A program made the translations under genes and the position numbers. The notes beneath the pieces were generated by a model. The model did not search any database and was not told where the DNA came from. It saw only the letters and a list, made by a program, of their open reading frames with translations. From positions 62,001-126,000 of the forward strand of contig JAUXYP010000001.1 in NCBI GenBank assembly GCA_030694265.1: DNA of 64,000 nucleotides, in the 5' to 3' direction. The stretch is from Sulfuricurvum sp. GTDB taxonomy: Bacteria; Campylobacterota; Campylobacteria; Campylobacterales; Sulfurimonadaceae. Shown here piece after piece: positions 46,889-60,074 of the stretch. Position 1 is the first letter of the stretch, and each line of letters opens with the position of its first letter.

Positions 46889-48280
46889 TTAGTTTTCCCA
46901 CCCGCCACCAAGAGCTTTGTAAAGGCTAATGGTAGTTGTGAGAACGTTTTGTTTTGAGATAATAGCCTGTTGTTGTGCCGCTATCCAGTTTTGTTGAACG
47001 ACCAGAAGATCAGTATATGAATATGTTCCTACTTTATAGCGTAGTTGCGCTTGTTCAAACGCTTTTTTGAGGGCATCGGCCTTTTTTTGGTTAAACATAA
47101 CCTGCTCTTTGGCTTTGCTATTTTGAGCCAGAGCATTATCAGTATCATTTAGGGCAGTTAGGACGGTTTTTTGGTAGATCGCTACGCTTTGGTTGTAATC
47201 AGCATGGGCTACTCTCATTTGTGCATCTATGAGCCCGGCGGTAAAGATAGGGATAGTGGCAACAGGAGTAATTTGCCACAGTTTGGTTGGATTTGAAAAC
47301 ACATTGGACAACGTATCACTTTGCACTCCCAGCATCGCGGTTAAACTAAGACTTGGGAAATAGGCGGCTTTGGTAATGCCAATTTTTGCATTGGCTGCGA
47401 TGAGATTTTGTTCAGCAATGGCAACATCGGGTCGGCGCGTGAGTAGCTGACTGGGTAAACCTGCAGGAACCTCTGGAATATTGATCGATTCCATTGGAGT
47501 AACATGGATATTTTTGTTATTTTCTCCCAACAATGTATTGAGAGTACTTTCCTCAGATGTTCGTGCTGCTTCCAGTTGTGAGAGTGTAGAATGGGCTGCC
47601 TCAAGTTGCGCGGATGCACTGAGCCATTCCGTTTGAGCACTGGCCCCAAGTTTGTATTTTAGAAGGGTGTTTTTTTCGATCTCTTGCGTTGCTGTTATGT
47701 TTTCATTGGCCAGTTTAATCTGATCATTAAGGGATGAAAGACGAGCATAGGATGCACATACACTTGCCGAGACTGTTAGTTGAACGCTGCGACGATTGTA
47801 TTCGCTTGCCATTAGTTGAGAACGTGCGGCATCCGTTGTACGCCTAACTTTTCCATAGAGATCAATCTCATAGCTTGCCATGCTCAGTGATCCAGAATAC
47901 GTTGAGGTGATTCCATCTCTGAGATTTCGGTTTGGAATCGCATTTTCCGTACTTTTACGATCAAATGAGGCCGTACCGTTTATATGAGGATAGAGATAGG
48001 ATTCGGTTTGATCAAATTGACCCAAATACGCTTCTAACTGTGCTTGTGAAATAGCGATGTCATAGTTAGCAATAAGCGCTTTCGTGACGAGTTGTGTGAG
48101 TAGGGGATCATGAAAGGACTCCCACCAGTTTTTATCAATCATAGCTTTTTTTAAGTCACTTTGATTTGCATCACTATTATGAAATGTATCGGGAACAGTG
48201 CTGGTTGGTTTGACATAGTCGGGTCCGATACTGCATCCACTTATGAGCAATGCGAGTAAGAGAGAGAGTTTAGTCTTCAT
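46889..48280 (-). CDS. NodT-family outer-membrane efflux lipoprotein
   Basis: A 463-residue outer-membrane channel from the start chosen here, which gives a lipoprotein signal peptide ending LLISGC (Cys17 lipidated). SIGPDYVKPT after the Cys is a classic OprM/NodT start. Long helical repeats and QVMFNQKKADALKKAFEQAQ / RYKVGTYSYTDLL follow. It overlaps the RND pump by 11 bases and should be its outer-membrane partner. Confidence 0.92.
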   Translation of the reverse strand: MKTKLSLLLALLISGCSIGPDYVKPTSTVPDTFHNSDANQSDLKKAMIDKNWWESFHDPLLTQLVTKALIANYDIAISQAQLEAYLGQFDQTESYLYPHINGTASFDRKSTENAIPNRNLRDGITSTYSGSLSMASYEIDLYGKVRRTTDAARSQLMASEYNRRSVQLTVSASVCASYARLSSLNDQIKLANENITATQEIEKNTLLKYKLGASAQTEWLSASAQLEAAHSTLSQLEAARTSEESTLNTLLGENNKNIHVTPMESINIPEVPAGLPSQLLTRRPDVAIAEQNLIAANAKIGITKAAYFPSLSLTAMLGVQSDTLSNVFSNPTKLWQITPVATIPIFTAGLIDAQMRVAHADYNQSVAIYQKTVLTALNDTDNALAQNSKAKEQVMFNQKKADALKKAFEQAQLRYKVGTYSYTDLLVVQQNWIAAQQQAIISKQNVLTTTISLYKALGGGWEN

Positions 48281-51200
48281 CAAATTCTCCTTTTGTAGGG
48301 CTAAGTTTTTCTTGGAAGGTAGCCACCCAATAGTAGAGATAGGGGATAAAGTAACGCTCGATGAACGTAGCAGAGAGCATCCCTCCAAACATCGCAATAC
48401 CGATGGACATACGTCCCATAGAACCAGCCCCTGAGCTGAAGATGAGGGGGAGCATCCCTGCTAAAAAGGCAAAAGAGGTCATCATCATCGGACGATAACG
48501 CAATCGTGCCGCTTCCATGGCCGAATCGTAGATACTTTTTCCCATTTGCCGCTGCTCTTCGGCAAACTCGACGACCAAAATCGCATTTTTTGCCGAAAGG
48601 GCGATAAGGGTGAGCAGTCCGATTTGGAAGAAAACGTTGTTATTCAAAAACGGAATCAACCATACTACAGTATAGGCCCCCATAATCCCATACGGAACGG
48701 CGAGCATGATAGAAATCGGTAATGTCCAGCGCTCATAGAGTGCCGCAAGGATTAAATAAACCATTACTAATGCAAAAGCGATGATCATGAGTGCTTTTGA
48801 CCCGACCAGTTTCTCTTGAAGGTACAGACCATCCCAGTCGTAACTTACAGTGTTGGGTAAAACCGTATCGGCTTTGGACTCCAAAATTTTAATCAAATCT
48901 CCTGAACTGTATCCAGGGGAGGGTGAACCCATGACGGTGGTGCTGAGCACGCCGTTGAAATGTTCAATAGACGAAGGTGCACTGGACATAGTGACGTGTA
49001 CCACCGACGAGAGAGGGACAAGCTGTCCACTGTTAGAACGAACCCATGCACGGCCTATATCCTCAGGAGTAGCACGATAGACAGAATCAGACTGCATCTG
49101 TACCCAGTAGGTTTTACCGTTTTTATCGAACTGATTGACGTACATGGTACCGATGGTTGCTTGGAGGGTTTGGAAAACATCGCTGATGGCAAGACCCATC
49201 ATCTTGGCTTTTTCACGATCCACTTCTACGGTGAGGGTGGGCGTAGTGATATTCATGGTTGTCATCGGATTTTTAATGCTGGGATCATTGCGCAGTTCAC
49301 CGACAAACGCATTGGTCGCGGCAGCCAGTTTGTTAAAATCGTTATCTCCCGGTTGCAGCAATTTCAAGCTGAACATATCGGATGGCCCCATACCGCGAAT
49401 CGGCGGCGGAGGCATAGCGAATACTTTAGCTTCTTTAATGCTTCCCAGTTTGGGTGCTAAGGATCCAAGAAGTCCGAAAACGCTGAGCTCCTTAGTGGTA
49501 CGCTCGCTCCACGGTTTCAGTCGGGTAAAGATAACCGCGGCATTGGGCTCTTGCGAGAAGGTGAGGATATTAAGTCCTGTAATAGCCGTAAATTTAGCGA
49601 CCCCCTCTTGCTTGCTGAGAATTCCTTCAACCTGTTTGACAACGTCTAATGTACGGTTTGCGGTTGCACCATCAGGCAAGACGACTGCGGTGATAAAATA
49701 TCCCTGATCTTCCATCGGCAAAAAGGCACTCGGGAGGGTTTTATGAAAAAAGCCGATAAAACCATACGTTGAGAGATAGATGAGGAAAAAGATAAATGAT
49801 TTACGGATCATCCATCCTGAACGGCGAACGTAGTTTTCGGTCATTCTTCCAAAAACACGGTTGAACCAGCGGAAAAAGCGCGCAGGCTCATTCTCGTGGT
49901 GTTTGAGGATTAGTGCCCCGATAGCCGGAGCGAATGTCAGTGCCATAAAGCCTGAGAATACGACAGAAATGGCGATCGTGGCGGCAAACTGTTTATACAG
50001 CTGCCCTGTCATTCCACCCAAAAATGTAGCAGGGATAAAAACGGCACACATCACGAGGACGATAGCAACTACGGGACCCGAAATCTGAGCCATCGCTTTG
50101 ATGGCGGCTTCTCGGGGAGAGAGTTTTTCACTCTGGAGTATCCGCTCCATATTTTCGATAACAACGATCGCATCATCGACGACGATACCGATTGCGAGGA
50201 CCAGCCCAAAAAGGGTGAGAGTATTGATCGAATATCCCAGTAAATACATCCCGATAAATGCTCCGGTCAGCGAGATCGGGATTGAGAGGATGGGGATTAT
50301 CGCGGCGCGGCTACTTTGTAAGAAAAGGTATATAACCAAACTGACTAAAATGATGGAGGCAAGCAGGGTGAAAATAACCTCTTCAATCGAGATTTTGACA
50401 AAGTCGGTTGTGTCATATGGGATGTCATAGCTTATCCCTTTTGGGAACTTATGGGAGAGCTTTTCTATTTTTTCGGCTACGGCGGCAGAGGTATCCAGAG
50501 CATTGGCATTGGTATCGGCAAAAATACCGATCATTGCAGCGGGTTTGCCATTTACCCGTCCAAAAAATTCGTAGTTTTGGCTTCCCAACTCTACGCGGGC
50601 AACGTCTTTGAGACGCAGCATTGAACCATCCGGTTTTGCACGGACAATGATGTTTTGAAACTCTTCAGGGGTACTGAAACGCCCTTTAGAGGTGAGCTGC
50701 ATCGTCCACATCTGTTCATCATTAGTGGGACCTTGTCCCAAGCGCCCTGGAGAGACTTGGAGGTTTTGATCTCTGATGGCGCTTGCGATTTCAGATGTAC
50801 TTACTCCCAATGATGCCATCCGATCGGGATTGAGCCAAATACGCATTGCATAGTCGCGTTGCCCGAAGATTTGTGCTCGCCCGGCACCGGGAATTTTTTT
50901 AACTTCATCAAGGAGATTGGCGGAGATATAGTTACTGATTTGGGTTGCGTCAAAGCTTCCATCGGGAGAGGTGATTGCAACGATAAGCAAAATGTCAGAG
51001 GTTTTTTTCTGTACCGTTACTCCGAGATCGCGCGTACTTTGAGGAAGTTGTGAGATAACCGAATTGATACGATTTTGTACATCCACCGCAGCCATGTCTT
51101 GATTGACACCGATGTTGAACGTACAGGTAATCGTAGCACTGCCAGGTAGTGCGGCGGCTTTTGAACTCATATACATCAGACCATCAGCACCCGATATCTG

Positions 51201-51404
51201 TGATTCCAACGGAGTGAGGATAGTGTTGGCAATGGTTTGGGCATCGGCACCCGGATACTGCGCAGAGACAACTACCGTAGGTGGGGTGAGATTGGGCAGT
51301 TGAGAAATAGGCAGTGTTTTGATGGCTACGAATCCGAGCAACATGATGATCAGGGCAATAACGGCCGATAGAACAGGTCTGTTAATGAAATATTTGCTAA
51401 ACAT
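48270..51404 (-). CDS. RND multidrug efflux pump, HAE1 family (AcrB/MexB-like)
   Basis: A 1044-residue proton-driven inner-membrane pump with 12 membrane segments and two large periplasmic loops. FINRPVLSAVIALIIMLLG at the start, GLVLAIGIVVDDAIVVIEN in TM4 with the paired Asp residues of the proton relay, and SAKNAILVVEFAEE in TM10 are conserved HAE1 features. It shares one base with the adaptor gene (TAATG). Confidence 0.96.
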   Translation of the reverse strand: MFSKYFINRPVLSAVIALIIMLLGFVAIKTLPISQLPNLTPPTVVVSAQYPGADAQTIANTILTPLESQISGADGLMYMSSKAAALPGSATITCTFNIGVNQDMAAVDVQNRINSVISQLPQSTRDLGVTVQKKTSDILLIVAITSPDGSFDATQISNYISANLLDEVKKIPGAGRAQIFGQRDYAMRIWLNPDRMASLGVSTSEIASAIRDQNLQVSPGRLGQGPTNDEQMWTMQLTSKGRFSTPEEFQNIIVRAKPDGSMLRLKDVARVELGSQNYEFFGRVNGKPAAMIGIFADTNANALDTSAAVAEKIEKLSHKFPKGISYDIPYDTTDFVKISIEEVIFTLLASIILVSLVIYLFLQSSRAAIIPILSIPISLTGAFIGMYLLGYSINTLTLFGLVLAIGIVVDDAIVVIENMERILQSEKLSPREAAIKAMAQISGPVVAIVLVMCAVFIPATFLGGMTGQLYKQFAATIAISVVFSGFMALTFAPAIGALILKHHENEPARFFRWFNRVFGRMTENYVRRSGWMIRKSFIFFLIYLSTYGFIGFFHKTLPSAFLPMEDQGYFITAVVLPDGATANRTLDVVKQVEGILSKQEGVAKFTAITGLNILTFSQEPNAAVIFTRLKPWSERTTKELSVFGLLGSLAPKLGSIKEAKVFAMPPPPIRGMGPSDMFSLKLLQPGDNDFNKLAAATNAFVGELRNDPSIKNPMTTMNITTPTLTVEVDREKAKMMGLAISDVFQTLQATIGTMYVNQFDKNGKTYWVQMQSDSVYRATPEDIGRAWVRSNSGQLVPLSSVVHVTMSSAPSSIEHFNGVLSTTVMGSPSPGYSSGDLIKILESKADTVLPNTVSYDWDGLYLQEKLVGSKALMIIAFALVMVYLILAALYERWTLPISIMLAVPYGIMGAYTVVWLIPFLNNNVFFQIGLLTLIALSAKNAILVVEFAEEQRQMGKSIYDSAMEAARLRYRPMMMTSFAFLAGMLPLIFSSGAGSMGRMSIGIAMFGGMLSATFIERYFIPYLYYWVATFQEKLSPTKGEFDED

Positions 51405-52534
51405 TATTGTGCGCTCGGAATCACTTCCGCCCCCGGTTTGAGTTTAGGAAGTCCGTCAGCGGCAATTTTATCCCCCGCAGCAACACCGCTTTGTATAAGA
51501 ACATTTTCACCGATCCATTCTCCTGCAACGACAGGTTTTTGGGTCACGGTATTATTCGCCTCTATGGCATAAACAAACTTCCCTTTTTCTCCTGTTAAGA
51601 GTGTTTTTTGAGGGATATAAAGGGCATTTTTCCATTCCATCCCTTTGACTTTTACGTGGACGAATTGTCCTGGAAGAAGTCTATGATCGCTGTTGTCGAT
51701 CAGTGCGCGATAAGTAATATTGCCTGTTGTCGAGTCGATAAACGGTGCAATAAAGTTAATCTCACCCTTGCGTGCCAATATTGTTCCATCACTGAGTGTG
51801 AGTTCCACTTCATATTTGTTATTTTTGGGAGCAGTCAGCTTACCGCTGGCAATTGCATTTTGATGAGCAATTTTTTGGTTTTCGCTAAACGTAAAATTGA
51901 CATAAATCGGATTCGTTTCGTACATCGTGGTGAGCAGTGCATTGGCTCCTGCAGCGATGTAGGTTCCATTATCCAGTTTTGCTTTGTCGACAAATCCGCT
52001 GATAGGAGCCTTGATGGTAGCATAGCTGAGATTGAGTTTGGCCTGTGCTACGCCGGCTTTCGCTCCCAAAATAGTCGCTGATGTGGTTCGTTCATTAGCG
52101 ATTGCCGCATCAAGTTCCTGACGGCTTACGGCATTAGCTTCAGCCAGAGGCCTAATACGATTTAATACCGCTAATGCGTTGATATGGTTTGCTTGTGAGA
52201 GTTCTAACGATGCTTTGGCACTTTCCAGAGCATTGTTCAAATCGGAAGGGTCGATAGTAAAAAGGGTTTGTCCCTTTTGTACCTGTGAGCCTTCAACATA
52301 CGTGCGTTTTTGCAGATAGCCGTTGACACGCGCATAGACTTGTACGGTATTAAAGGCTTGTGTTTGTCCCGTCGCTTCCAAAACAGCCGGAAAATCCCCT
52401 GTTTTTACTTCCGCAGTGGTAACCGAAACAGGCCCCTCGGGCGGTTTTTCCATCCCTGCGGCTTTTGGGCGTTCGCATCCGTTTAGTACGATGAGTAATA
52501 CAGAGGAAAGGGCAAGAGTTGTAACGCGGTTCAT
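51404..52534 (-). CDS. RND membrane-fusion adaptor lipoprotein (AcrA/MexA-like)
   Basis: A 376-residue periplasmic adaptor. The ATG at 52534 gives a lipoprotein signal peptide ending VLNGC (Cys20) and overlaps the marR stop as ATGA. Then follow barrel and lipoyl segments (GYLQKRTYVEGSQVQKGQTL), a short coiled-coil hairpin (about 95-165), KAPISGFVDKAKLDNGTYI, and a membrane-proximal domain. It pairs with the adjacent RND pump. Confidence 0.93.
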   Translation of the reverse strand: MNRVTTLALSSVLLIVLNGCERPKAAGMEKPPEGPVSVTTAEVKTGDFPAVLEATGQTQAFNTVQVYARVNGYLQKRTYVEGSQVQKGQTLFTIDPSDLNNALESAKASLELSQANHINALAVLNRIRPLAEANAVSRQELDAAIANERTTSATILGAKAGVAQAKLNLSYATIKAPISGFVDKAKLDNGTYIAAGANALLTTMYETNPIYVNFTFSENQKIAHQNAIASGKLTAPKNNKYEVELTLSDGTILARKGEINFIAPFIDSTTGNITYRALIDNSDHRLLPGQFVHVKVKGMEWKNALYIPQKTLLTGEKGKFVYAIEANNTVTQKPVVAGEWIGENVLIQSGVAAGDKIAADGLPKLKPGAEVIPSAQ

Positions 52535-52992
52535 TTGGATTCCTTTGATGAATAATTTAAAGTTTGGCACATCTGTTTTAAGACGCGCAGGGTAATAGCA
52601 AGTTCTTGTGGGTCGATACCGCGGTGCAGATGAAGAGTCGCTTTTTCTAAAACTTCCATCGTTGGTTTCTCCAGAGCGATTCCTTGCGGTGTGAGGGTGA
52701 CGAGATTACACCGCTTATCGGTTTTATCAGAGGTACGCTTAATGAGGGAGCGTTTTTCAAGCCCTGCTATGAGACGGGTGACACTCGCTTTGTCTTTACC
52801 GACAAAATCGGCAATGTTTTGTTGGGTTGATGTCCCTTCTTTCCATAATACGACCATCACTTTGAACTGTTCGATCGTCATATCAATATCGTGTAAAGAT
52901 AATTGACGCGTGAGATAGTTCCTCGCAGCCATAGCGGAAAGATTGGTGAGGCATCCTAAAGATTCTTCGGTGGGGCATTCGCATCGATTCAT
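52531..52992 (-). CDS. MarR family transcriptional regulator
   Basis: A 153-residue winged-helix repressor. The start at 52992 gives MNRCECPTEESLG; an upstream extension would run through the promoter and operator. The HTH is TQQNIADFVGKDKASVTRLI, and the wing is RTSDKTDKRCNLVTLT. Three cysteines near the ends (two in CEC, one in CQTLN) could sense oxidants or metals. It heads the seven-gene efflux operon; a palindrome between its promoter and start codon suggests autorepression relieved by drug or oxidant binding. Confidence 0.88.
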   Translation of the reverse strand: MNRCECPTEESLGCLTNLSAMAARNYLTRQLSLHDIDMTIEQFKVMVVLWKEGTSTQQNIADFVGKDKASVTRLIAGLEKRSLIKRTSDKTDKRCNLVTLTPQGIALEKPTMEVLEKATLHLHRGIDPQELAITLRVLKQMCQTLNYSSKESK

Positions 52993-53006
52993 AATAACTC
53001 CAAAAC

Positions 53007-53022
53007 AGTTGACTATGCAACT
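53007..53022. promoter_or_regulatory. probable MarR operator
   Basis: AGTTGACTATGCAACT has 5-base inverted arms (AGTTG / CAACT) around a 6-base centre, the shape of MarR-type operators. It lies right after the predicted transcription start of the marR operon and 15 bases before the marR ATG, so a bound repressor would block that promoter. Confidence 0.6.
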
Positions 53023-53032
53023 AATTAGGGGA

Positions 53033-53061
53033 ATTGTACCTCTGCGCGTTCGAAAAGTCAA
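53033..53061 (-). promoter_or_regulatory. sigma-70 promoter of the marR-efflux operon
   Basis: The minus strand reads TTGACT, 17 bases, TACAAT: a near-consensus promoter with ideal spacing, rare in this window where most promoters show only a -10 box. The -10 lies 41 bases before the marR ATG. Confidence 0.65.
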
Positions 53062-53080
53062 GAGTAGCTTGACAAACTCC

Positions 53081-53089
53081 TGCTATAAT
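53081..53089 (+). promoter_or_regulatory. extended -10 promoter of the slyD-like gene
   Basis: TGCTATAAT lies 29 bases before ATG, with AAAAGGAAAA as ribosome site. The promoter is divergent from that of marR, and the two -35 regions lie close together. Confidence 0.6.
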
Positions 53090-53118
53090 CTCGATAAAAG
53101 TATTAAAAGGAAAACTCC

Positions 53119-53595
53119 ATGGTAGTGACTAAAAATTGTATTGTGACCATCGACTACCATATCAACGATAGTGAGGGAAATCTTGTTCATGAACAGACAG
53201 AATCGCTTAGTTATTTACACGGTGATTACGGGCAGCTTTTTAACGGTGTTGAAGAAGCGTTAGAGGGCAAAAAAGTTGGAGATACTTTCAAGGTAGCCCT
53301 CTCGTCTGACCAAGCATTTGGTGAGTATGATCCTGAGTTGCTTGTAACGGAAAACATCAGTGAACTTCCAGCAGATTTACACGTTGGTATGGAGATTGAC
53401 GGATACATGGAAGACGATGACGAGGATGTTATTATCTATACGGTCAAAGAGATAAAAGGAAAAAAAGCGACGTTGGACGGCAATCATCCACTAGCGGGAA
53501 TGGATCTTGTCTTTGAGGGAACTGTTTTGGATATTCATGAAGCGGATGCAAAAACGATCCAAGAAGTTTTAGAAAATGACAGTCACGAGGTCTAA
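53119..53595 (+). CDS. slyD: FKBP-type peptidyl-prolyl isomerase, SlyD-like
   Basis: A 158-residue cytoplasmic prolyl isomerase/chaperone. The split FKBP domain (about 1-65 and 125-145) surrounds an insert-in-flap domain (about 70-120), the SlyD plan; marks are YHINDSEGNLVHEQTESLSY, LFNGVEEALEGKKVGD and HPLAGMDLVFEGTVLDIH. The His/Cys-rich metal-binding tail of E. coli SlyD is absent, so a nickel role is doubtful. Its stop codon interlocks with that of the convergent thioredoxin-fold gene. Confidence 0.9.
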   Translation: MVVTKNCIVTIDYHINDSEGNLVHEQTESLSYLHGDYGQLFNGVEEALEGKKVGDTFKVALSSDQAFGEYDPELLVTENISELPADLHVGMEIDGYMEDDDEDVIIYTVKEIKGKKATLDGNHPLAGMDLVFEGTVLDIHEADAKTIQEVLENDSHEV

Positions 53596-53602
53596 TTAGA
53601 CC
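53589..53602. repeat. 14-bp perfect palindrome over two convergent stop codons
   Basis: GGTCTAATTAGACC is its own reverse complement and holds the stop codons of both slyD (TAA) and the facing gene (TAG). With no loop or T-tract it is a poor hairpin, but it could be a protein-binding site or a compact convergent end. Confidence 0.5.
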
Positions 53603-54011
53603 CGATATTAGTTTTAGTGAATTTCACTTCCACTTCTTGCAATATTTTGAGGAAAGATTTAACATTCTTTCCTCCATACAACGTTTCTTCGATAAATTCC
53701 CCTTTTGCATTCACAAAATGAAATACAGGACTCGCCTTTACGATGAGGTGCTTTGGCGCATCGGATTTACTGACATTGAGCAGTACAGGGACAAAATATT
53801 CGTTGGTATAGGCGCTAAGGTTTTCATCTTTAAAAACTTTTGCCTCTAGGAAATCACACGACTCACAGCCGGGACGGTGCATATAAACAACCATTGGCTT
53901 GTTGTCTTTAGCAGCGATAGCAGACCCCTCTTTATAGGTAGTAATCCAGTTGATCTGTGCCGCATTTAATGTAAAAGCTAGCAATAAAATGAAAAGAATT
54001 TTTTTCATCAT
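53592..54011 (-). CDS. exported thioredoxin-fold protein with CxxC
   Basis: A 139-residue periplasmic protein: signal peptide (1-18), thioredoxin fold with C49-E-S-C52, and the cis-Pro segment IVKASPVFHFVNAKGEFIEE. It is paralogous to the protein at 42167-42565. It is divergent from the tandem methyltransferase gene, 106 bases apart, sharing an AT-rich spacer with an inverted repeat, so the two may be regulated together. The target is unknown. Confidence 0.8.
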   Translation of the reverse strand: MMKKILFILLLAFTLNAAQINWITTYKEGSAIAAKDNKPMVVYMHRPGCESCDFLEAKVFKDENLSAYTNEYFVPVLLNVSKSDAPKHLIVKASPVFHFVNAKGEFIEETLYGGKNVKSFLKILQEVEVKFTKTNIGSN

Positions 54012-54034
54012 TTCTCCTATTTAAGTATTTAGCA

Positions 54035-54047
54035 TAGTTACTAACTA
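54035..54047. promoter_or_regulatory. candidate operator in the thioredoxin/methyltransferase spacer
   Basis: TAGTTACTAACTA is a 13-base palindrome with one central base. Together with a TTAG-rich palindrome at 55894-55914 it may be bound by the ArsR-family protein of this cluster. This is a guess from symmetry and position. Confidence 0.3.
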
Positions 54048-54117
54048 TTAAGAATTAAAATTATATCATTGCTACCTAATAATTTATATAAGTAGTGACG
54101 TAATACAAGGATCATCA

Positions 54118-55476
54118 TTGAGTACTATCACATGCGCTTCAAAACAGGTAATTGAACTTTATACCGATTTGGCACTAAATCCCCACAAAGATTTTGGCTG
54201 GGAAAAAGGGATTGAAAATGCCCGCAGTCACGGCTACAAAGAAGAATGGATTGAACAACTTCCTGCACCGCTGTGGGATTATTGTGCCGCGGTAGGAAAT
54301 CCATTTTCATTAGGTGAATTCCCTGTGGGTTCAACAGTGCTTGATCTTGGGTGCGGTGCAGGGGTTGATCTGTGTGTTGCGGCATTGCTCGTGGGTGAGG
54401 GTGGAAAAGCTATCGGAGTAGATATAACTCCCATGATGATCGAAACAGCACAGCGTTATGCCAAGCAATCAGGATTACAAAACGTTCAAGTAGTAGAAGC
54501 AAACCTTGAGTCTTTACCGTTTGAGAATGAGAGCATGGATATTGTCATTTCCAACGGTGCCATCAATCTCACTTCCTCAAAAGAAAAAGTATTTAGTGAA
54601 GTATTTCGTGTACTTGTTCCTGATGGAAAACTTTATTTTGCGGATATGATCGATATATCCGATGCGATGTGTGCTACGTCGTGCTGTTCTCAACCTTCTT
54701 CGGGAGATTGGGCAAATTGTGTAGAGGGGACACTCTCCAAAGAGTCTCTGATTGGGATGATGAGTGAAGTGGGATTCGTGAACGTTGAATGTACGGGAAT
54801 CAATCATTACACGACAGCACCCACCACCGCCGGAGCGACTTTTAGAGCGACCAAAGGCGATGGAAAGGTAAGACAGCGTCATTGGGAAAACGTGTATACA
54901 ACCAAGGACGTGAGTAAAGTGGGCTGGTATCAAGAAGCCCCATCAACCTCTCTCTCCCTTTTACAGAAAATAGGATCGACTCAAAAAAATCGTTTTATCG
55001 ATGTGGGATGCGGCGCGTCGATGCTGGTCGATGGCTTAATTGATTTAGGTTATCAGAACATTACCCTACTGGATATTTCGCCCAGTGCGCTGGAAATCGT
55101 CAAAAAACGGCTTGGTGTCAATGCTGATCTGCCCGTCTATCGTGCTGAAGATGTGTGCACTTTTTCTTCTGAAACACTATTTGACGTATGGCACGATCGT
55201 GCTGCATTTCATTTTCTTCAAAAGGAAGAGGAGCAGCAAGCGTATTTGAAAGCGCTTCATCAAGCACTCTCTCCTAATGGTCACGCTATTATCGGCACAT
55301 TTGCAGTAGATGGTCCTGATAGCTGCAGTTCATTGCCTGTGCGTCAATACAATGAAGAGAGGATGAAAAAACTCGTGAAAGATCATTTCGATGTTATTGA
55401 TGTAACGGAAGAAATTCACATCACTCCAAGTGGCAGTGAACAACATTATTGTTATTTTGTTTTGAAACCTATTTAA
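54118..55476 (+). CDS. tandem class I SAM methyltransferase (ArsM-like domain fused to a second methyltransferase domain)
   Basis: A 452-residue cytoplasmic protein with two complete Rossmann methyltransferase domains. The first (about 55-245) has motif I VLDLGCGAG at 74-82, GVDITPMMIETA, and a Cys-rich stretch CATSCCSQ...WANC followed by VEGTLSKESLIGMM, like arsenite methyltransferases. The second (about 258-452) starts RHWENVYTTKDVSKVGWYQ, has motif I FIDVGCGAS near 291-299 and LLDISPSALEIVKKRL. The start is TTG after an AAGG site. The end overlaps arsR by 8 bases. Substrate unknown; arsenite, another metalloid or a thiol are all possible. Confidence 0.82.
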   Translation: MSTITCASKQVIELYTDLALNPHKDFGWEKGIENARSHGYKEEWIEQLPAPLWDYCAAVGNPFSLGEFPVGSTVLDLGCGAGVDLCVAALLVGEGGKAIGVDITPMMIETAQRYAKQSGLQNVQVVEANLESLPFENESMDIVISNGAINLTSSKEKVFSEVFRVLVPDGKLYFADMIDISDAMCATSCCSQPSSGDWANCVEGTLSKESLIGMMSEVGFVNVECTGINHYTTAPTTAGATFRATKGDGKVRQRHWENVYTTKDVSKVGWYQEAPSTSLSLLQKIGSTQKNRFIDVGCGASMLVDGLIDLGYQNITLLDISPSALEIVKKRLGVNADLPVYRAEDVCTFSSETLFDVWHDRAAFHFLQKEEEQQAYLKALHQALSPNGHAIIGTFAVDGPDSCSSLPVRQYNEERMKKLVKDHFDVIDVTEEIHITPSGSEQHYCYFVLKPI

Positions 55477-55852
55477 GTGATAGCGTATCACCAAAGAACA
55501 ACTCTCTGTTGTTGTCGAAATTAGTGACTAAAGTCCCAAAGCATTCGGCAAGTTCTCGGATTGTCTCTATATTAGGTTCTATATAAACTTTATTCCCTTT
55601 TTTCTCAACGCTAATGACTTTTGCTTCTTTTAGCTCTTTGATATGTGCAGAGATTGTCGGAAGAGAAAAATTAAAATGTTCCGCAACGGTACTAACACAC
55701 GTAGCAATAGGATTTACTTTAACACCGGGCTGTACTTTATCCAGAGAGCAGGTGTATCCTCCGGTAAAAACATTTTTGAAAATCATAAAACGGGTTTGAT
55801 TACTAAGTGCTTTGAAAATTTTTAACTTTTGTTCCATATCGAGCATAAACAT
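55469..55852 (-). CDS. ArsR family transcriptional regulator
   Basis: A 127-residue winged-helix repressor. The HTH is VAEHFNFSLPTISAHIKELKEA, with wing VISVEKKGNKVYIE. Cysteines at 35, 52 and 104 could bind a thiophilic ligand such as arsenite, or sense sulfur/redox, but the ELCVCDL motif of classical ArsR is absent. Alternative in-frame starts exist at residues 3 and 6. It converges on the methyltransferase (8-base overlap) and diverges from the rhodanese gene, whose spacer holds a palindrome. Confidence 0.88.
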   Translation of the reverse strand: MFMLDMEQKLKIFKALSNQTRFMIFKNVFTGGYTCSLDKVQPGVKVNPIATCVSTVAEHFNFSLPTISAHIKELKEAKVISVEKKGNKVYIEPNIETIRELAECFGTLVTNFDNNRELFFGDTLSLK

Positions 55853-55893
55853 CCTTGATTGTTTTAAGGTTTGCTATTGTACCATACATATCA

Positions 55894-55914
55894 CTTAGTA
55901 ATTTAGCTAATAAG
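55894..55914. promoter_or_regulatory. imperfect palindrome between arsR and the rhodanese gene, candidate operator
   Basis: CTTAGTAATTTAGCTAATAAG is imperfectly symmetrical and contains the perfect TTAGCTAA (55903-55910). It lies 27-47 bases upstream of the rhodanese ATG and upstream of a TACAAT box (55876-55881, minus) for arsR. A repressor there could control both directions. Confidence 0.4.
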
Positions 55915-55940
55915 GTTATTTACATATATAGGAGTATAAA

Positions 55941-56402
55941 ATGAAAGTTAAAGTTGCATTAATGGTAGCGGGTTTGATGATAGGTTCATCCCTTATGGCA
56001 GGTCAAGCAGAAGCAGAAAAGCTGGTCTCTGCGGCAAAGCAAGAGGCGGGAGAAATGGCTCCTAAAGAGTTGAAAAAAATGATTGATGCGGAAAAAAGCG
56101 TGATCGTTATGGACGTGCGTGAAGAGAACCAGCGTGCAGAGGGTGAGATTTACACAACGACTACAATGGCAATCACACGCGGAAATTTGGAATTTGAAGT
56201 GCTGAATAAAATCAAAGATAAAAATGCAGTCATTGTAACTTATTGTCGTAGTGGTGGACGAGGTGCATTGGCCGCTCAGACGCTCAAAAAGTTAGGTTAT
56301 GTTAATGCAACAAATCTACAAGGTGGATTAAAAGGATGGGCTAAAGAAGGTTATCCGATTGAAACAGGATTAGGGGTTACTTTACTAACTAAAGAACAAT
56401 AA
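55941..56402 (+). CDS. exported single-domain rhodanese
   Basis: A 153-residue periplasmic protein with a signal peptide (1-20), a short helical region, and a rhodanese domain (about 40-145) with the active-site loop YCRSGGRG (Cys102), DVREENQRAEGEI and the terminal NLQGGLKGWAKEGYPIE. A sulfurtransferase that moves sulfane sulfur in the periplasm is likely. It is divergent from the ArsR gene. The 189 bases after it hold AT-rich sequence with a short near-repeat (TATATTGAT twice) and the rplU promoter, nothing else I can name. Confidence 0.88.
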   Translation: MKVKVALMVAGLMIGSSLMAGQAEAEKLVSAAKQEAGEMAPKELKKMIDAEKSVIVMDVREENQRAEGEIYTTTTMAITRGNLEFEVLNKIKDKNAVIVTYCRSGGRGALAAQTLKKLGYVNATNLQGGLKGWAKEGYPIETGLGVTLLTKEQ

Positions 56403-56546
56403 GACAATCTATTAGGTGGGTCTAATATATATTGATGTACAATCACGTAGCTAGATTATAGGTCAGATTGACGTATATTGATACGTAAACTTGTGGGTTG
56501 TTGTAATAAGTACTCCATTTTAATTTAAGCTTAAATATTATTTCGC

Positions 56547-56552
56547 TACAAT
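56547..56552 (+). promoter_or_regulatory. -10 box of rplU-rpmA
   Basis: TACAAT lies 39 bases before the rplU ATG, behind an AT-rich stretch with TTAAGCTTAA. No -35 box is obvious. Confidence 0.4.
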
Positions 56553-56591
56553 TCGCAACTTTTTGTAGACTTGTAAAGTAAGGAACACGTA

Positions 56592-56900
56592 ATGTACGCA
56601 ATTATCAAAAACGGCGGAAAACAGTACAAAGTTCAAGAGGGTGATATCCTTTTGTTCGATAGAATGAGTCTTGATCCAAAGACTACCGTCGAAATCAAAG
56701 AAGTTCTTGCCGTTAATAACGGTGAACTTAGAACTGGTACTCCATATGTAGAGGGTGCTGTAGTCACTTTTGAAGTTATTAATGAGGGCCGTGACCGTAA
56801 AGTCATCGTTTTCAAAAAACGTCGTCGTAAAGACAGTAAAGTTAAGCGTGGTTTCCGTAGAGATCACACACGCGTTCGTATCGTTAAGATCGCTGCGTAA
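56592..56900 (+). CDS. rplU: 50S ribosomal protein L21
   Basis: A 102-residue protein with the whole-length L21 pattern: [33 protein letters not shown], and the basic C-terminal [20 protein letters not shown] that binds 23S rRNA. The paired gene rpmA follows after 20 bases. Confidence 0.97.
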
Positions 56901-56920
56901 TTATAAAGTAGGAGGACAGC

Positions 56921-57178
56921 ATGGCTCATAAGAAAGGTCAAGGTAGTACACAGAATAACCGCGACTCAGCGGGACGTAGACTCGGTGTCAAAAAATATGG
57001 TGGTGAAGTAGTACGTGCGGGTAATATCATTATCCGTCAGCGCGGAACAAAAGTTCACCCTGGTAAAAATATCGGTATGGGTAAAGACCACACTTTGTAT
57101 GCATTGGTTGACGGTGTTGTTTTATTTCACCGTAAAGACAAAAAACGCAAACAAGTTTCTGTCGTTCCTGCCGCATAA
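56921..57178 (+). CDS. rpmA: 50S ribosomal protein L27
   Basis: An 85-residue protein starting [19 protein letters not shown] after Met; the N-terminal tail reaches the peptidyl-transferase centre. [20 protein letters not shown] is the family signature. No N-terminal leader as in Firmicutes is present. An AGGAGG site precedes ATG. Confidence 0.97.
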
Positions 57179-57186
57179 TTTTCCTC

Positions 57187-57214
57187 ATCGGGCATCTTCG
57201 CCCGATCTCTTTAG
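57187..57214 (+). terminator. hairpin terminator after rpmA
   Basis: ATCGGGC-atcttc-GCCCGAT gives a 7-bp GC-rich stem 8 bases after the rpmA stop, followed by a weak T-rich run. It separates rplU-rpmA from obgE, which then has its own promoter. Confidence 0.65.
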
Positions 57215-57250
57215 TTTTCCAACAATGTATTTTCTTAATAGTGTACTTTT

Positions 57251-57277
57251 TTGACAGTCTTGAAGTTCAAGTATAGT
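57251..57277 (+). promoter_or_regulatory. promoter of obgE
   Basis: TTGACA, 15 bases, TATAGT; the -10 ends 24 bases before the obgE ATG. The spacing is shorter than the usual 17. Confidence 0.45.
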
Positions 57278-57301
57278 TTTAAGCCAGATAAGGATTGATG
57301 A

Positions 57302-58396
57302 ATGTTTAGCGATAGCGTAGTAATAACTGTTTCTTCGGGTAAAGGTGGAGCAGGATGTGTCGCGTTTAGACGCGAAAAGTTTGTCATCCAAGGCGGACCT
57401 GATGGTGGTGATGGCGGAAAAGGTGGAGATGTTTACTTTAAAGTAGATAATAATACCCATACGTTGGCCAATTTTCAGGGAAATAAAACGCTCAAAGCCG
57501 AAAAAGGTCAGCCGGGTTCAGGATCGAATATGTACGGTAAAGCCGGTAAAAAGCTCACGATCGTTGTTCCACCAGGAACACAGGTTGTTGATGTGGAAAC
57601 GGGTGAAGTTCTTCTGGATCTATTAACAAACGGTCAAGAAGTTTTATTTCTAACCGGCGGTCGCGGTGGTCTTGGAAACGTTCACTTTAAATCTTCGATC
57701 AATCAAAAACCGATGTATGCGCAACCGGGTGAACCTGAAACCACGCGTATTGTAAGACTTGATCTTAAGCTTATCGCGGATGTAGGACTTGTCGGTTTTC
57801 CTAACGTTGGAAAATCAACACTTATTTCTACGGTTTCCAATGCACGTCCTGAAGTAGCAAACTACGAGTTTACAACATTGACCCCGAAACTGGGTCAGAT
57901 TAATATCGGTGAATTTGATTCCTATATCATGGCGGATATTCCGGGTATTATTGGTGGGGCTCACGAGGGCAAAGGTCTTGGTCTCAAGTTTTTACGCCAC
58001 ATTGAGCGGACCAAAACATTGTTGTTTATGATTGACTTAGCGTCTTATCATGAACTTCAACATCAGTATGAAACACTTAAAGAAGAGCTTGCGAAATTCT
58101 CGCCACTGTTGGCTGAACGTAATTTTGCGATTGCATTAACAAGATCAGATGCCATGAGCCCTGAAGAAGCAAAAGAAAAAAGTAATGCATTTTTGAAATT
58201 GCTCAATCTCCAGCCGATTAAAAAAAGCCGTTTCGGATTTAGTGAAGAGTATCCGGTATTTGAGCAGGAAAATTTTGATGAAGGGTTCCGCGATGTTTCT
58301 TTGCCATTTTTTGTGGCACCAATCTCTTCAGCGACCAGTTTGAATATTAAACCTCTTACCTATGCTCTTTACCATATGGTTCAAATAGAGCGTTAA
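57302..58396 (+). CDS. obgE: Obg GTPase (CgtA)
   Basis: A 364-residue GTPase of late 50S subunit assembly, linked to ppGpp signalling. The glycine-rich Obg fold is at 1-158 ([34 protein letters not shown]), and the G domain has G1 GFPNVGKS at 165-172, G3 DIPG and G4-like TRSD where NKXD would be usual. A short C-terminal extension follows. Its stop overlaps the proB start. Confidence 0.96.
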
Positions 58397-59163
58397 TGAA
58401 ACGGCTGGTAGTAAAAGTCGGTAGTGCCGTTTTAAGCGAACAAAACCGTATCGCGAAGGATCGGATGCACAATCTGGTCGATTTTATTGCTGAATTAAAA
58501 TTACGTTATGAAGTGATACTGGTATCTTCTGGAGCAGTTGCTGCAGGATATACCGAACTCAAACTTGATAAAAAAGTACTTGCGAATAAGCAAGCTTTAG
58601 CTTCTATCGGCCAGCCGATCTTGATGAACAAATACAAAAAAATGTTTGAATCTCACAATATCCTCCCCTCCCAAATTTTAGTTACCGCTGCTAACTTTAA
58701 TACCCAAGAAGAGTCGCAAAAAGCGAAAGACACCATTGAGACCTTATTGCAGCATAATGTTGTACCGATCATCAATGAAAATGATGCAACGGCAACTGAA
58801 GAACTTGTTTTAGGGGATAATGATCAGCTTTCTGCATATGCGGCATATCATTTTGGTGCGGATATGCTGGTCATACTTTCAGATATTGATGCCTACTATG
58901 ATAAAGATCCTAGAGTACATGAGGATGCTAAAGTGCGTTCCCATATTGCGGCCATTGAGCCTGAAGAACTTACTCGCGAGGTGACGCCGAACCATAATTT
59001 TGCAACCGGCGGGATTGTCACAAAGCTAAAAGCGGCAGATTTTTTACTCAAGCGCGGTAAAGCGATGTTCTTAGCCAGCGGTTTTGATCTCGCCGATGCG
59101 AAGTCATTTCTTTTGGATGACGTGCATTGCGGCGGAAGCCTCTTTCAAGCGAATACCCTTTAA
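58396..59163 (+). CDS. proB: glutamate 5-kinase (short form, no PUA domain)
   Basis: A 255-residue amino acid kinase family enzyme that phosphorylates glutamate for proline synthesis. [30 protein letters not shown] and [12 protein letters not shown] and [11 protein letters not shown] are conserved. It stops at the end of the kinase domain and lacks the C-terminal PUA domain of the E. coli enzyme. It sits in the obgE-proB-fmt order known from C. jejuni. It overlaps obgE and fmt by one base each. Confidence 0.95.
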
Positions 59164-60074
59164 TGACCCGTATTATCTTTATGGGTACGCCGGATTATGC
59201 GGCGGATATTTTAAAAACGTTGATGGCTGCTGATGATATTGAAGTAGTTGCTGTTTATACTCAACCGGACAAACCGGTAGGACGCAAGGGAACATTAACT
59301 CCTCCACCGGTAAAAGTATTAGCACAAGAGGCACATATCCCGGTGATACAACCTTCACGTTTACGGGATGAGAATGTTGTTGAAGAGTTATTGAAAATTA
59401 AGTGCGATATGATCATTGTTGCAGCATATGGTCAGATTCTGCCAAAAGCTATTTTGGATTATGCCCCGTGTGTTAATCTGCACGCATCCATTCTCCCACA
59501 ATATCGAGGTGCCAGCCCGATTCAGCAAAGCTTATTGCATAATGATACTAAAAGCGGTGTGACGGCGATGTGGATGGATGAAGGGCTTGATACAGGTGCG
59601 ATTATAAAGATTGCAACCGTTGATGTTTCCCCTGATGAGATGGTGGAAACCTTATATACCTCGCTAACAAAGATCGCTAGGGATCTGACCGTCGATGTTA
59701 TCCACCATTGGGACCGAAAAACGGCTGTTTCTCAAAATGATGCAGAAGCGACGCATTGCAGTAAGATATCCAAATCAGATGGATTGACAGCGTTTGAAAA
59801 TGCCGTAGATATTTATAATAAATATCGTGCATTTACTCCATGGCCCGGTATTTATTTGGAATCAGGACTCAAACTTAAAGAGATGGAATTAGTAGAAAAT
59901 GAAAGCCATGGAAGTGCAGGTGAGATAGTCACAATTGAACCTCATGGCGTTGTTGTACAATGCAATCAAGGATCGTTACGTTTGATCAAAGTTCAAGCTC
60001 CTTCAAAACAAGAGACATCGGCGATAGCCTACTTAAATGGAAAGCGACTTGGGTGTGGAAATACACTGGTTTGA
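59163..60074 (+). CDS. fmt: methionyl-tRNA formyltransferase
   Basis: A 303-residue enzyme that formylates initiator Met-tRNA. The ATG at 59163 (in TAATG with proB) gives TRIIFMGTPDYAADIL. The catalytic segment NLHASILPQYRGASPIQ and DEGLDTGAII are present, and a C-terminal tRNA-binding barrel follows (about 205-303). The end overlaps the start of birA. Confidence 0.95.
   Translation: MTRIIFMGTPDYAADILKTLMAADDIEVVAVYTQPDKPVGRKGTLTPPPVKVLAQEAHIPVIQPSRLRDENVVEELLKIKCDMIIVAAYGQILPKAILDYAPCVNLHASILPQYRGASPIQQSLLHNDTKSGVTAMWMDEGLDTGAIIKIATVDVSPDEMVETLYTSLTKIARDLTVDVIHHWDRKTAVSQNDAEATHCSKISKSDGLTAFENAVDIYNKYRAFTPWPGIYLESGLKLKEMELVENESHGSAGEIVTIEPHGVVVQCNQGSLRLIKVQAPSKQETSAIAYLNGKRLGCGNTLV

Follow-up and report, generated by a model that had tools for sequence, protein, structure and literature searches.

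What does a protein made of two consecutive methyltransferases do, and on which compound does it act? This question is raised by a reading frame in a Sulfuricurvum-like genome of 2.1 Mb (G000). The window, the whole stretch of 64,000 nucleotides analyzed herein, lies on contig C9 of this genome, and the reading frame (54118-55476, plus strand) is uninterrupted over 452 codons from a TTG start, with an AAGGA stretch a few bases 5' of the start. From the sequence alone, the first-pass annotation had noted two different methyltransferase domains, ArsM-like cysteines in the first domain, and a neighborhood suggestive of a two-step methylation of a metalloid or thiol. As our leading reading, held tentatively and with slightly less than an even chance, the product would be a two-domain SAM methyltransferase of the cytoplasm, serving to detoxify a thiophilic metalloid, likeliest As(III) or thiol-bound or thiolated arsenic, in sulfidic habitats.

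The 452-residue protein genuinely joins two class I SAM methyltransferases. Searches of Pfam and NCBIfam placed one class I methyltransferase at residues about 37-248 and another at about 252-452; Pfam Methyltransf_31, Methyltransf_25 and Methyltransf_11 match both halves, and NodS matches the second half only. The N-terminal half (residues 1-248; 54118-54861, plus strand) and the C-terminal half (residues 251-452 and the stop codon; 54868-55476, plus strand) belong to different sequence families. The SAM-binding glycine motif is present in both, as VLDLGCGAGVD with D102 in the N-half and FIDVGCGAS with D319 in the C-half. The ColabFold model built from 18 fusion sequences (mean pLDDT 86) agrees with the domain search of each half in that both are predicted to fold as methyltransferases, so the double-methyltransferase plan first read by eye stands. 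With a profile of the fusion, no solved structure matched at 1e-30, and the match at 1e-10 was ArsM. For the whole fusion model, the top Foldseek rows were the plant phosphoethanolamine methyltransferases 5wp5 and 5wp4, with an rmsd of 16-20. No paper on the fusion protein was found in a literature search covering mostly papers outside subscription, and Rfam gave no match within 50000-60000 of the window.

When the fusion was sought in other genomes, it proved to be conserved: a total of 27 distinct full-length loci (duplicates removed) were identified in Campylobacterota, in Sulfuricurvum, Sulfurimonas and Sulfurovum relatives. A full-length match was present in 7 of the 60 genomes searched, the host included, and further fusions were found among 397 genomes of the phylum Campylobacterota; a GTDB contig scan gave 25 loci, of which 24 (full or partial) belong to Campylobacterota and one is a weak match in another phylum. 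None of the 72,556 plasmid records scanned covers 80% of the fusion. Full-length fusions share about 74-76% identity within Sulfuricurvum and about 50% with those of Sulfurimonas and Sulfurovum. Since they occur in independent assemblies, a chance reading frame or an assembly artefact is excluded.

The two halves are adjacent separate genes in five Sulfuricurvum loci (L021 and L035-L038). Where these were read, the N-half ends with TAA and the second half lies in another frame; in L035, the GTG start of the C-half follows two bases past the stop of the N-half. The stops of L036-L038 are located at the junction of the halves, with the second gene beginning in another frame, and not at the cysteine position. 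In both half-trees, the split copies group together as a single clade, although support is modest (73/23 and 89/94). In the C-half tree, in which standalone copies and copies truncated at contig ends are mixed with the fusions, at least six label changes are needed for the fused state, so a single fusion event is not established. Three Sulfuricurvum genomes (G019, G024 and G027) retain the C-half with the N-half lost or truncated, and one genome (G436) has both halves far apart. These patterns altogether indicate that the halves usually occur together and that the C-half can dispense with the N-half.

By both fold and sequence family, ArsM proteins are the closest solved relatives of the N-half. 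In the predicted model, residues 37-248 superpose on CrArsM (5evj) with Z 24.2 and rmsd 2.2 over 204 aligned residues at 32% identity, and the fusion is the only strong match to the ArsM model in the host genome. Plain membership in ArsM was nevertheless rejected: the N-half scores 163.8 bits against NF008823, below the cutoff of 263, and has neither the GCGNP cysteine nor the N-terminal CC pair. Its best NCBIfam models are two selenoproteins, NF041537 (196.7 bits, cutoff 510) and NF041536 (186.5 bits, cutoff 575). A selenoprotein was considered for this reason and discarded, as the reading frame has no in-frame TGA and the position in question is a cysteine.

As controls for the cysteines, four plasmid-encoded proteins annotated as arsM products were aligned with the N-half; ars genes lie close to three of them, and an ArsI-like gene adjoins the fourth (L100). 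The sole thiol common to the N-half and all four controls is C201, the cysteine of CxxG. At the GCGNP cysteine position (C72), a cysteine in 4/4 controls, V59 is found in 18/18 fusions, and the N-terminal CC pair of the controls is absent. A counterpart of C224 of CmArsM is probably missing too, the alignments ending short of that position. The earlier remark on ArsM-like cysteines is therefore borne out for C201 and fails for the GCGNP cysteine and the CC pair. C56, C185, C190, C201 and C403 are invariant in 18/18 aligned fusions, and C189 is conserved in 17/18; C56, C185, C189 and C190 are the N-half's own cysteines at positions not canonical in ArsM. The segment C185-x3-C189-C190-x10-C201 (codons at 54670-54720, plus strand) is a candidate rewired metalloid-binding loop, although residues 184-201 have a pLDDT below 50 in the fusion model. 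Among the five split N-halves, C56 and C201 are kept in 5/5, C185 is absent in 5/5, and the C189-C190 pair is complete in 3/5, the other two each lacking one of its cysteines. Valine at the GCGNP cysteine also occurs in three distant homologs, two of haloarchaea and one of Chelatococcus, all without the CxxxCC loop.

The arsenic-binding cysteine of CxxG corresponds to C174 of CmArsM, as stated in an ArsM survey (PMC5552862), which accepted only proteins with at least three of cysteines 44, 72, 174 and 224; with one ArsM thiol kept, the N-half would fail this filter. The reviewed selenoproteome gives UxxG as the motif of arsenite methyltransferase (PMC13188914), and its Sec falls at the position of C201. 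A precedent for methylation by an altered site is TtArsM of Thermus thermophilus, which is reported to have no canonical site and yet to methylate arsenite (PMC8649762). In view of this precedent and of the family-specific invariant cysteines, the CxxxCC loop may represent a relocated thiol site of the N-half. The fusion is thus a fused, cysteine-rewired relative of known ArsM, and surveys that demand the canonical cysteines would miss it. As a consequence, methylation of arsenic or other metalloids by abundant sulfur oxidizers of groundwater and vents could be overlooked.

The C-half is related to a different set of proteins. Its predicted fold (residues 249-452) is close to that of Rv0560c (7ndm; Z 22.0, rmsd 2.4, 193 aligned, 17% identity) and of NodS (Z 20.7, 14% identity), and it matches NodS-like methyltransferases weakly in domain and profile searches; against solved structures, its profile gave weak general methyltransferase matches, YtkW being the best. 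The signatures IDVGxGAS, WHDRA.FHF, GPxxCxxL and H.TP characterize this family, which is widespread and uncharacterized and occurs in many bacteria as proteins of a single domain. Of the plasmid records, 385 match some part of the fusion, and 13 annotated C-half loci among these, picked from the top 30, were read (H1, H2, H3, H6, H9, H10, H11, H15, H16, H20, H23, H25 and H26; H13 is without annotation). Sulfur or thiol genes (rhodanese, DsrE, TauE/YeeE, DsbD or thioredoxin) are located within 4 kb of the C-half gene in seven of the 13 (H1, H6, H9, H10, H23, H25 and H26), and genes for metal or RND efflux, MerT or chrA in six (H2, H3, H10, H16, H23 and H26); three (H11, H15 and H20) have neither. 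A Sphingomonas plasmid (L158) echoes the Campylobacterota set with a C-half gene, MerT, DsrE, ArsR and YeeE. At L157:1911-2573, an ArsR regulator carries a fused rhodanese domain, and genes next to it encode a C-half-type methyltransferase and a heavy-metal ATPase. For the second methyltransferase of a Runella plasmid, no relation was found to the N-half or to a 197-residue methyltransferase of the host described below. The C-half of the fusion provides a first functional lead for this widespread family.

The neighbors named in the first-pass annotation, an ArsR, a rhodanese and a thioredoxin-fold protein, were identified as such by domain searches. The thioredoxin-fold gene (Thioredoxin_7 with CESC; 53592-54011, minus strand) diverges from the fusion gene across a shared operator, and the rhodanese gene (55941-56402, plus strand) encodes an active-site-type C102; both products have a signal-peptide-like N terminus. 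Further along, an RND efflux set with a MarR-like regulator, as read by eye, adjoins the locus (46889-53061, minus strand) and consists of an outer-membrane lipoprotein, a 1044-residue pump and a membrane-fusion protein.

The repressor gene (55469-55852, minus strand) encodes an ArsR-family protein with exactly three cysteines, C35, C52 and C104, invariant in 21/21 aligned relatives. In alignment with arsenic ArsRs, C52 falls on the first cysteine of their CVCDL motif; C35 belongs to an insertion, and C104 is part of the C-terminal region. Of CxCxxC before the recognition helix, as in type 1 arsenic ArsR (R773), the first cysteine (C52) alone is present. As(III)-responsive ArsRs have three cysteines in several different layouts (PMC11868830). 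A sulfane-sulfur sensor of the SqrR/BigR/sHdrR class, which has two conserved cysteines, was considered and found unsupported: no match to BigR was obtained at E 1e-3, and no cysteine occurs at the RLMILC position of the BigR-like ArsR of L158 (itself at 89.8 bits against BigR, below the model cutoff), in an alignment uncertain at the insertion and the C-terminal helix. The cysteine layout favors a metal(loid) sensor, as judged by alignment, and does not settle the question.

A 16-bp palindrome is common to both intergenic regions of the window and constitutes a predicted operator: TTAGCATAGTTACTAA (54029-54044) lies between the thioredoxin-fold and fusion genes, and TTAGTAATTTAGCTAA (55895-55910) between the ArsR and rhodanese genes. 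When two mismatches are allowed, nine matches occur in the window against 4.2 expected, so only strong sites count. In most loci holding ArsR, a copy of the palindrome precedes the gene for the fusion, ArsR, rhodanese, a thioredoxin-fold protein, DsrE or MerT. The pattern TTAGYWWNNWWRCTAA has 41 matches in 402,123 bases of fusion-related loci; the reversed pattern has 0, and base shuffles (made without the window's own 8 kb) average 0.44. Since the pattern was taken from the window and loosened after relatives were seen, it is no independent prediction. Across 11 genomes, 43 sites were counted, 19 of them at fusion-related loci or a second ArsR locus; G010 has none, and G374 has 13, one of them at a fusion-related locus. 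As the reversed pattern occurs genome-wide at about the same frequency, single sites elsewhere are meaningless. In the host, four of six sites fall at its two ArsR loci. The second of these (L128; contig C10, 55000-67000) carries two operators and encodes DsrE, rhodanese, DUF302, DsrE and the 197-residue methyltransferase, which resembles the N-half only weakly (24% over 187), with a CusA/CzcA-type efflux pump nearby. Sigma-70-like sites were no commoner than in shuffles.

The 27 fusion loci were read with labelled neighbors, within limits set in some by contig ends; duplicates and six incomplete or N-half-less loci (L008, L019, L020, L022, L023 and L024) were left out of the counts. The three-cysteine ArsR gene is present at 18. 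A MerT-like membrane domain with vicinal cysteines is encoded upstream of the fusion at 11, in nine of them in one protein with rhodanese. Such MerT-rhodanese proteins are found at L009:4974-5990 and at L010, L013, L016, L017, L018 and L024, the active-site cysteine of rhodanese being replaced in some copies (VTYDRTGG, VVYSKLGL). At three loci (L005, L006 and L097), the fusion gene accompanies an ars cluster, arsP-arsC-arsR with divergent arsB, located directly 3' of arsB in the first two and with one gene between in the third; in L005 and L006 the ArsR of the cluster is of the CVCDL type and the permease of the ArsP type, and the ars families were confirmed for L005. An N-half-less C-half is located near arsB in L099. 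Other loci depart from this pattern: L011 has a CVCDL-type ArsR only, with operators; L012, L013 and L014 have no ArsR on their contigs and carry MerT-like, DsbD or rhodanese genes; and L084 and L086 have none of the ArsR, MerT-like or ars-cluster neighbors. Taken together, the ars clusters, the ArsR with its shared operator and the MerT, rhodanese, DsrE and DsbD partners recur beside the fusion in other genomes and support a link to a metalloid or thiol.

Since the protein is a relative of ArsM, and its relatives are located beside arsenic-resistance genes or an arsenic-type repressor, arsenic or a similar thiol-loving element is probably detoxified. The arsenic reading is supported by the closeness of the N-half to ArsM, the fusions within ars clusters and the C-half near arsB, the frequencies of the three-cysteine ArsR and the MerT-like protein, the 41 operator matches against 0, the N-half cysteines invariant among 18 fusions, and the precedent of TtArsM. 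It is weakened by the single ArsM thiol kept, where the survey demands at least three of four, by the split N-halves without C185 and, in two cases, without one of the C189-C190 pair, by the host's own arsB cluster, which is at another site in the genome without the fusion gene, by the periplasmic appearance of the rhodanese and thioredoxin partners of a cytoplasmic methyltransferase, by L084 and L086, and by the genomes that keep the C-half after loss of the N-half. The first-pass proposal of a metalloid or thiol substrate is in part supported.

In the mechanism that we infer, the substrate, the order of steps, the metal binding and the repressor ligand would be as follows. The three-cysteine ArsR would bind the metalloid and leave the 16-bp palindrome, thereby inducing the methyltransferase along with periplasmic proteins of thiol redox and sulfur transfer, namely the thioredoxin-fold protein and rhodanese and, in relatives, DsrE, DsbD and MerT-rhodanese. 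The N-half might grip the metalloid with C201, C189/C190 and perhaps C56, which would replace the lost thiols of GCGNP and of the N-terminal CC, and might add the first methyl group; the C-half might add the second, or methylate the released thiol. Two sequential steps on one substrate are possible by analogy with the two-domain plant phosphoethanolamine methyltransferases. A bolder form is doubtful: a new class of tandem metalloid methyltransferase, with the arsenic thiols moved to a CxxxCC...C loop, a second domain carrying out the next methylation or methylating the sulfur of thiolated arsenic, and a three-cysteine ArsR controlling periplasmic sulfur transfer. If this were true, sulfur-oxidizing Campylobacterota would possess an enzyme dedicated to thiolated arsenic.

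The main rival, next after the As(III) or metalloid reading and somewhat unlikely in our estimate, is that the compound methylated is sulfide, persulfide, a thiol of low molecular weight or a thiolated product, within a sulfane-sulfur stress regulon of which ArsR is the sulfur sensor. Its strongest point is that Sulfuricurvum genomes lacking the fusion gene also have the repressor together with rhodanese, DsrE and DsbD; the regulon core there comprises rhodanese, a pair of DsrE proteins, DsbD and proteins of the thioredoxin fold, and the module is therefore not specific to methylation. Sulfur and thiol genes near seven of the 13 plasmid C-half genes agree with this, as do the ArsR-type sulfane-sulfur repressors reported to control rhodaneses and related genes (PMC12423496). 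The repressor of the window, however, has no BigR match and, within the uncertainty of the alignment, no cysteine at the RLMILC position; three fusion loci lie within ars clusters, and the N-half is nearest to ArsM.

Another thiophilic element, Hg, Sb, Se or Te, could instead be the natural substrate of the same chemistry, which we consider quite unlikely. The vicinal cysteines of the MerT-like domain upstream of 11 of the 27 fusions, the selenoprotein arsenite methyltransferases nearest to the N-half in NCBIfam, and the plasmid C-half genes with chrA, dmeF, heavy-metal ATPase or MerT genes as neighbors would suit such an element, but merA and merB were not seen in the neighborhoods read, and no element-specific resistance cluster other than ars was seen to adjoin the fusion at more than one locus. 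Equally improbable is a chance joining of halves that act on unrelated small molecules or proteins within a general stress island. The wide occurrence of the C-half alone (385 plasmid records match some part of the fusion), its persistence where the N-half is lost, and the three plasmid loci with neither sulfur nor metal neighbors speak for it; against it, the halves are mostly fused or immediately adjacent in Sulfuricurvum, the split copies form one clade in both half-trees, and the operator is shared across loci.

The protein can be placed among known systems. It shares with ArsM (NF008823; CmArsM/CrArsM) the N-half fold and SAM core (Z 24.2), the CxxG cysteine and, in three relatives, the ars-cluster position, but differs in V59, the missing N-terminal CC, its own C56 and CxxxCC, the second methyltransferase and the score of 163.8 against the required 263 bits. 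Several other composite ArsM-like arrangements were observed. L061:106-3096 encodes radical SAM, an ArsM-like domain with a CGCGSP cysteine and DUF5714 in one protein of about 1000 residues (L061 was scanned), and L041 and L062-L070 belong by similarity and open-frame length to the same family (f20), which is related at order level. On two haloarchaeal plasmids (L077:2405-4600 and L104:2434-5101), genes for OsmC and for an ArsM-like protein in which V replaces the GCGNP cysteine are followed directly by one for another methyltransferase, an AhpD-type gene preceding the set in L104. The ArsM/AhpD (NF041537) and ArsM/DUF2284 (NF041536) selenoproteins resemble the fusion in joining an ArsM-like domain to a second domain and in placing the Sec of UxxG at C201 (PMC13188914), but the fusion falls far under their cutoffs of 510 and 575, has a methyltransferase as second domain, and carries Cys instead of Sec. 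TtArsM (PMC8649762) likewise lacks the canonical three-cysteine site; the likeness is by description rather than by sequence comparison, and TtArsM is a single methyltransferase. The C-half resembles the Rv0560c-type heterocyclic toxin methyltransferase and NodS in fold (Z 22.0 and 20.7), but shares with them 17% and 14% identity, and the WHDRA and GPxxCxxL signatures were derived herein for its own family. In the plant phosphoethanolamine N-methyltransferases (5wp5 and 5wp4), the two domains methylate sequentially; the fusion likewise has two class I methyltransferase domains per chain, but these are of other families, the plant substrate is different, and the whole-chain superposition is poor (rmsd 16-20).
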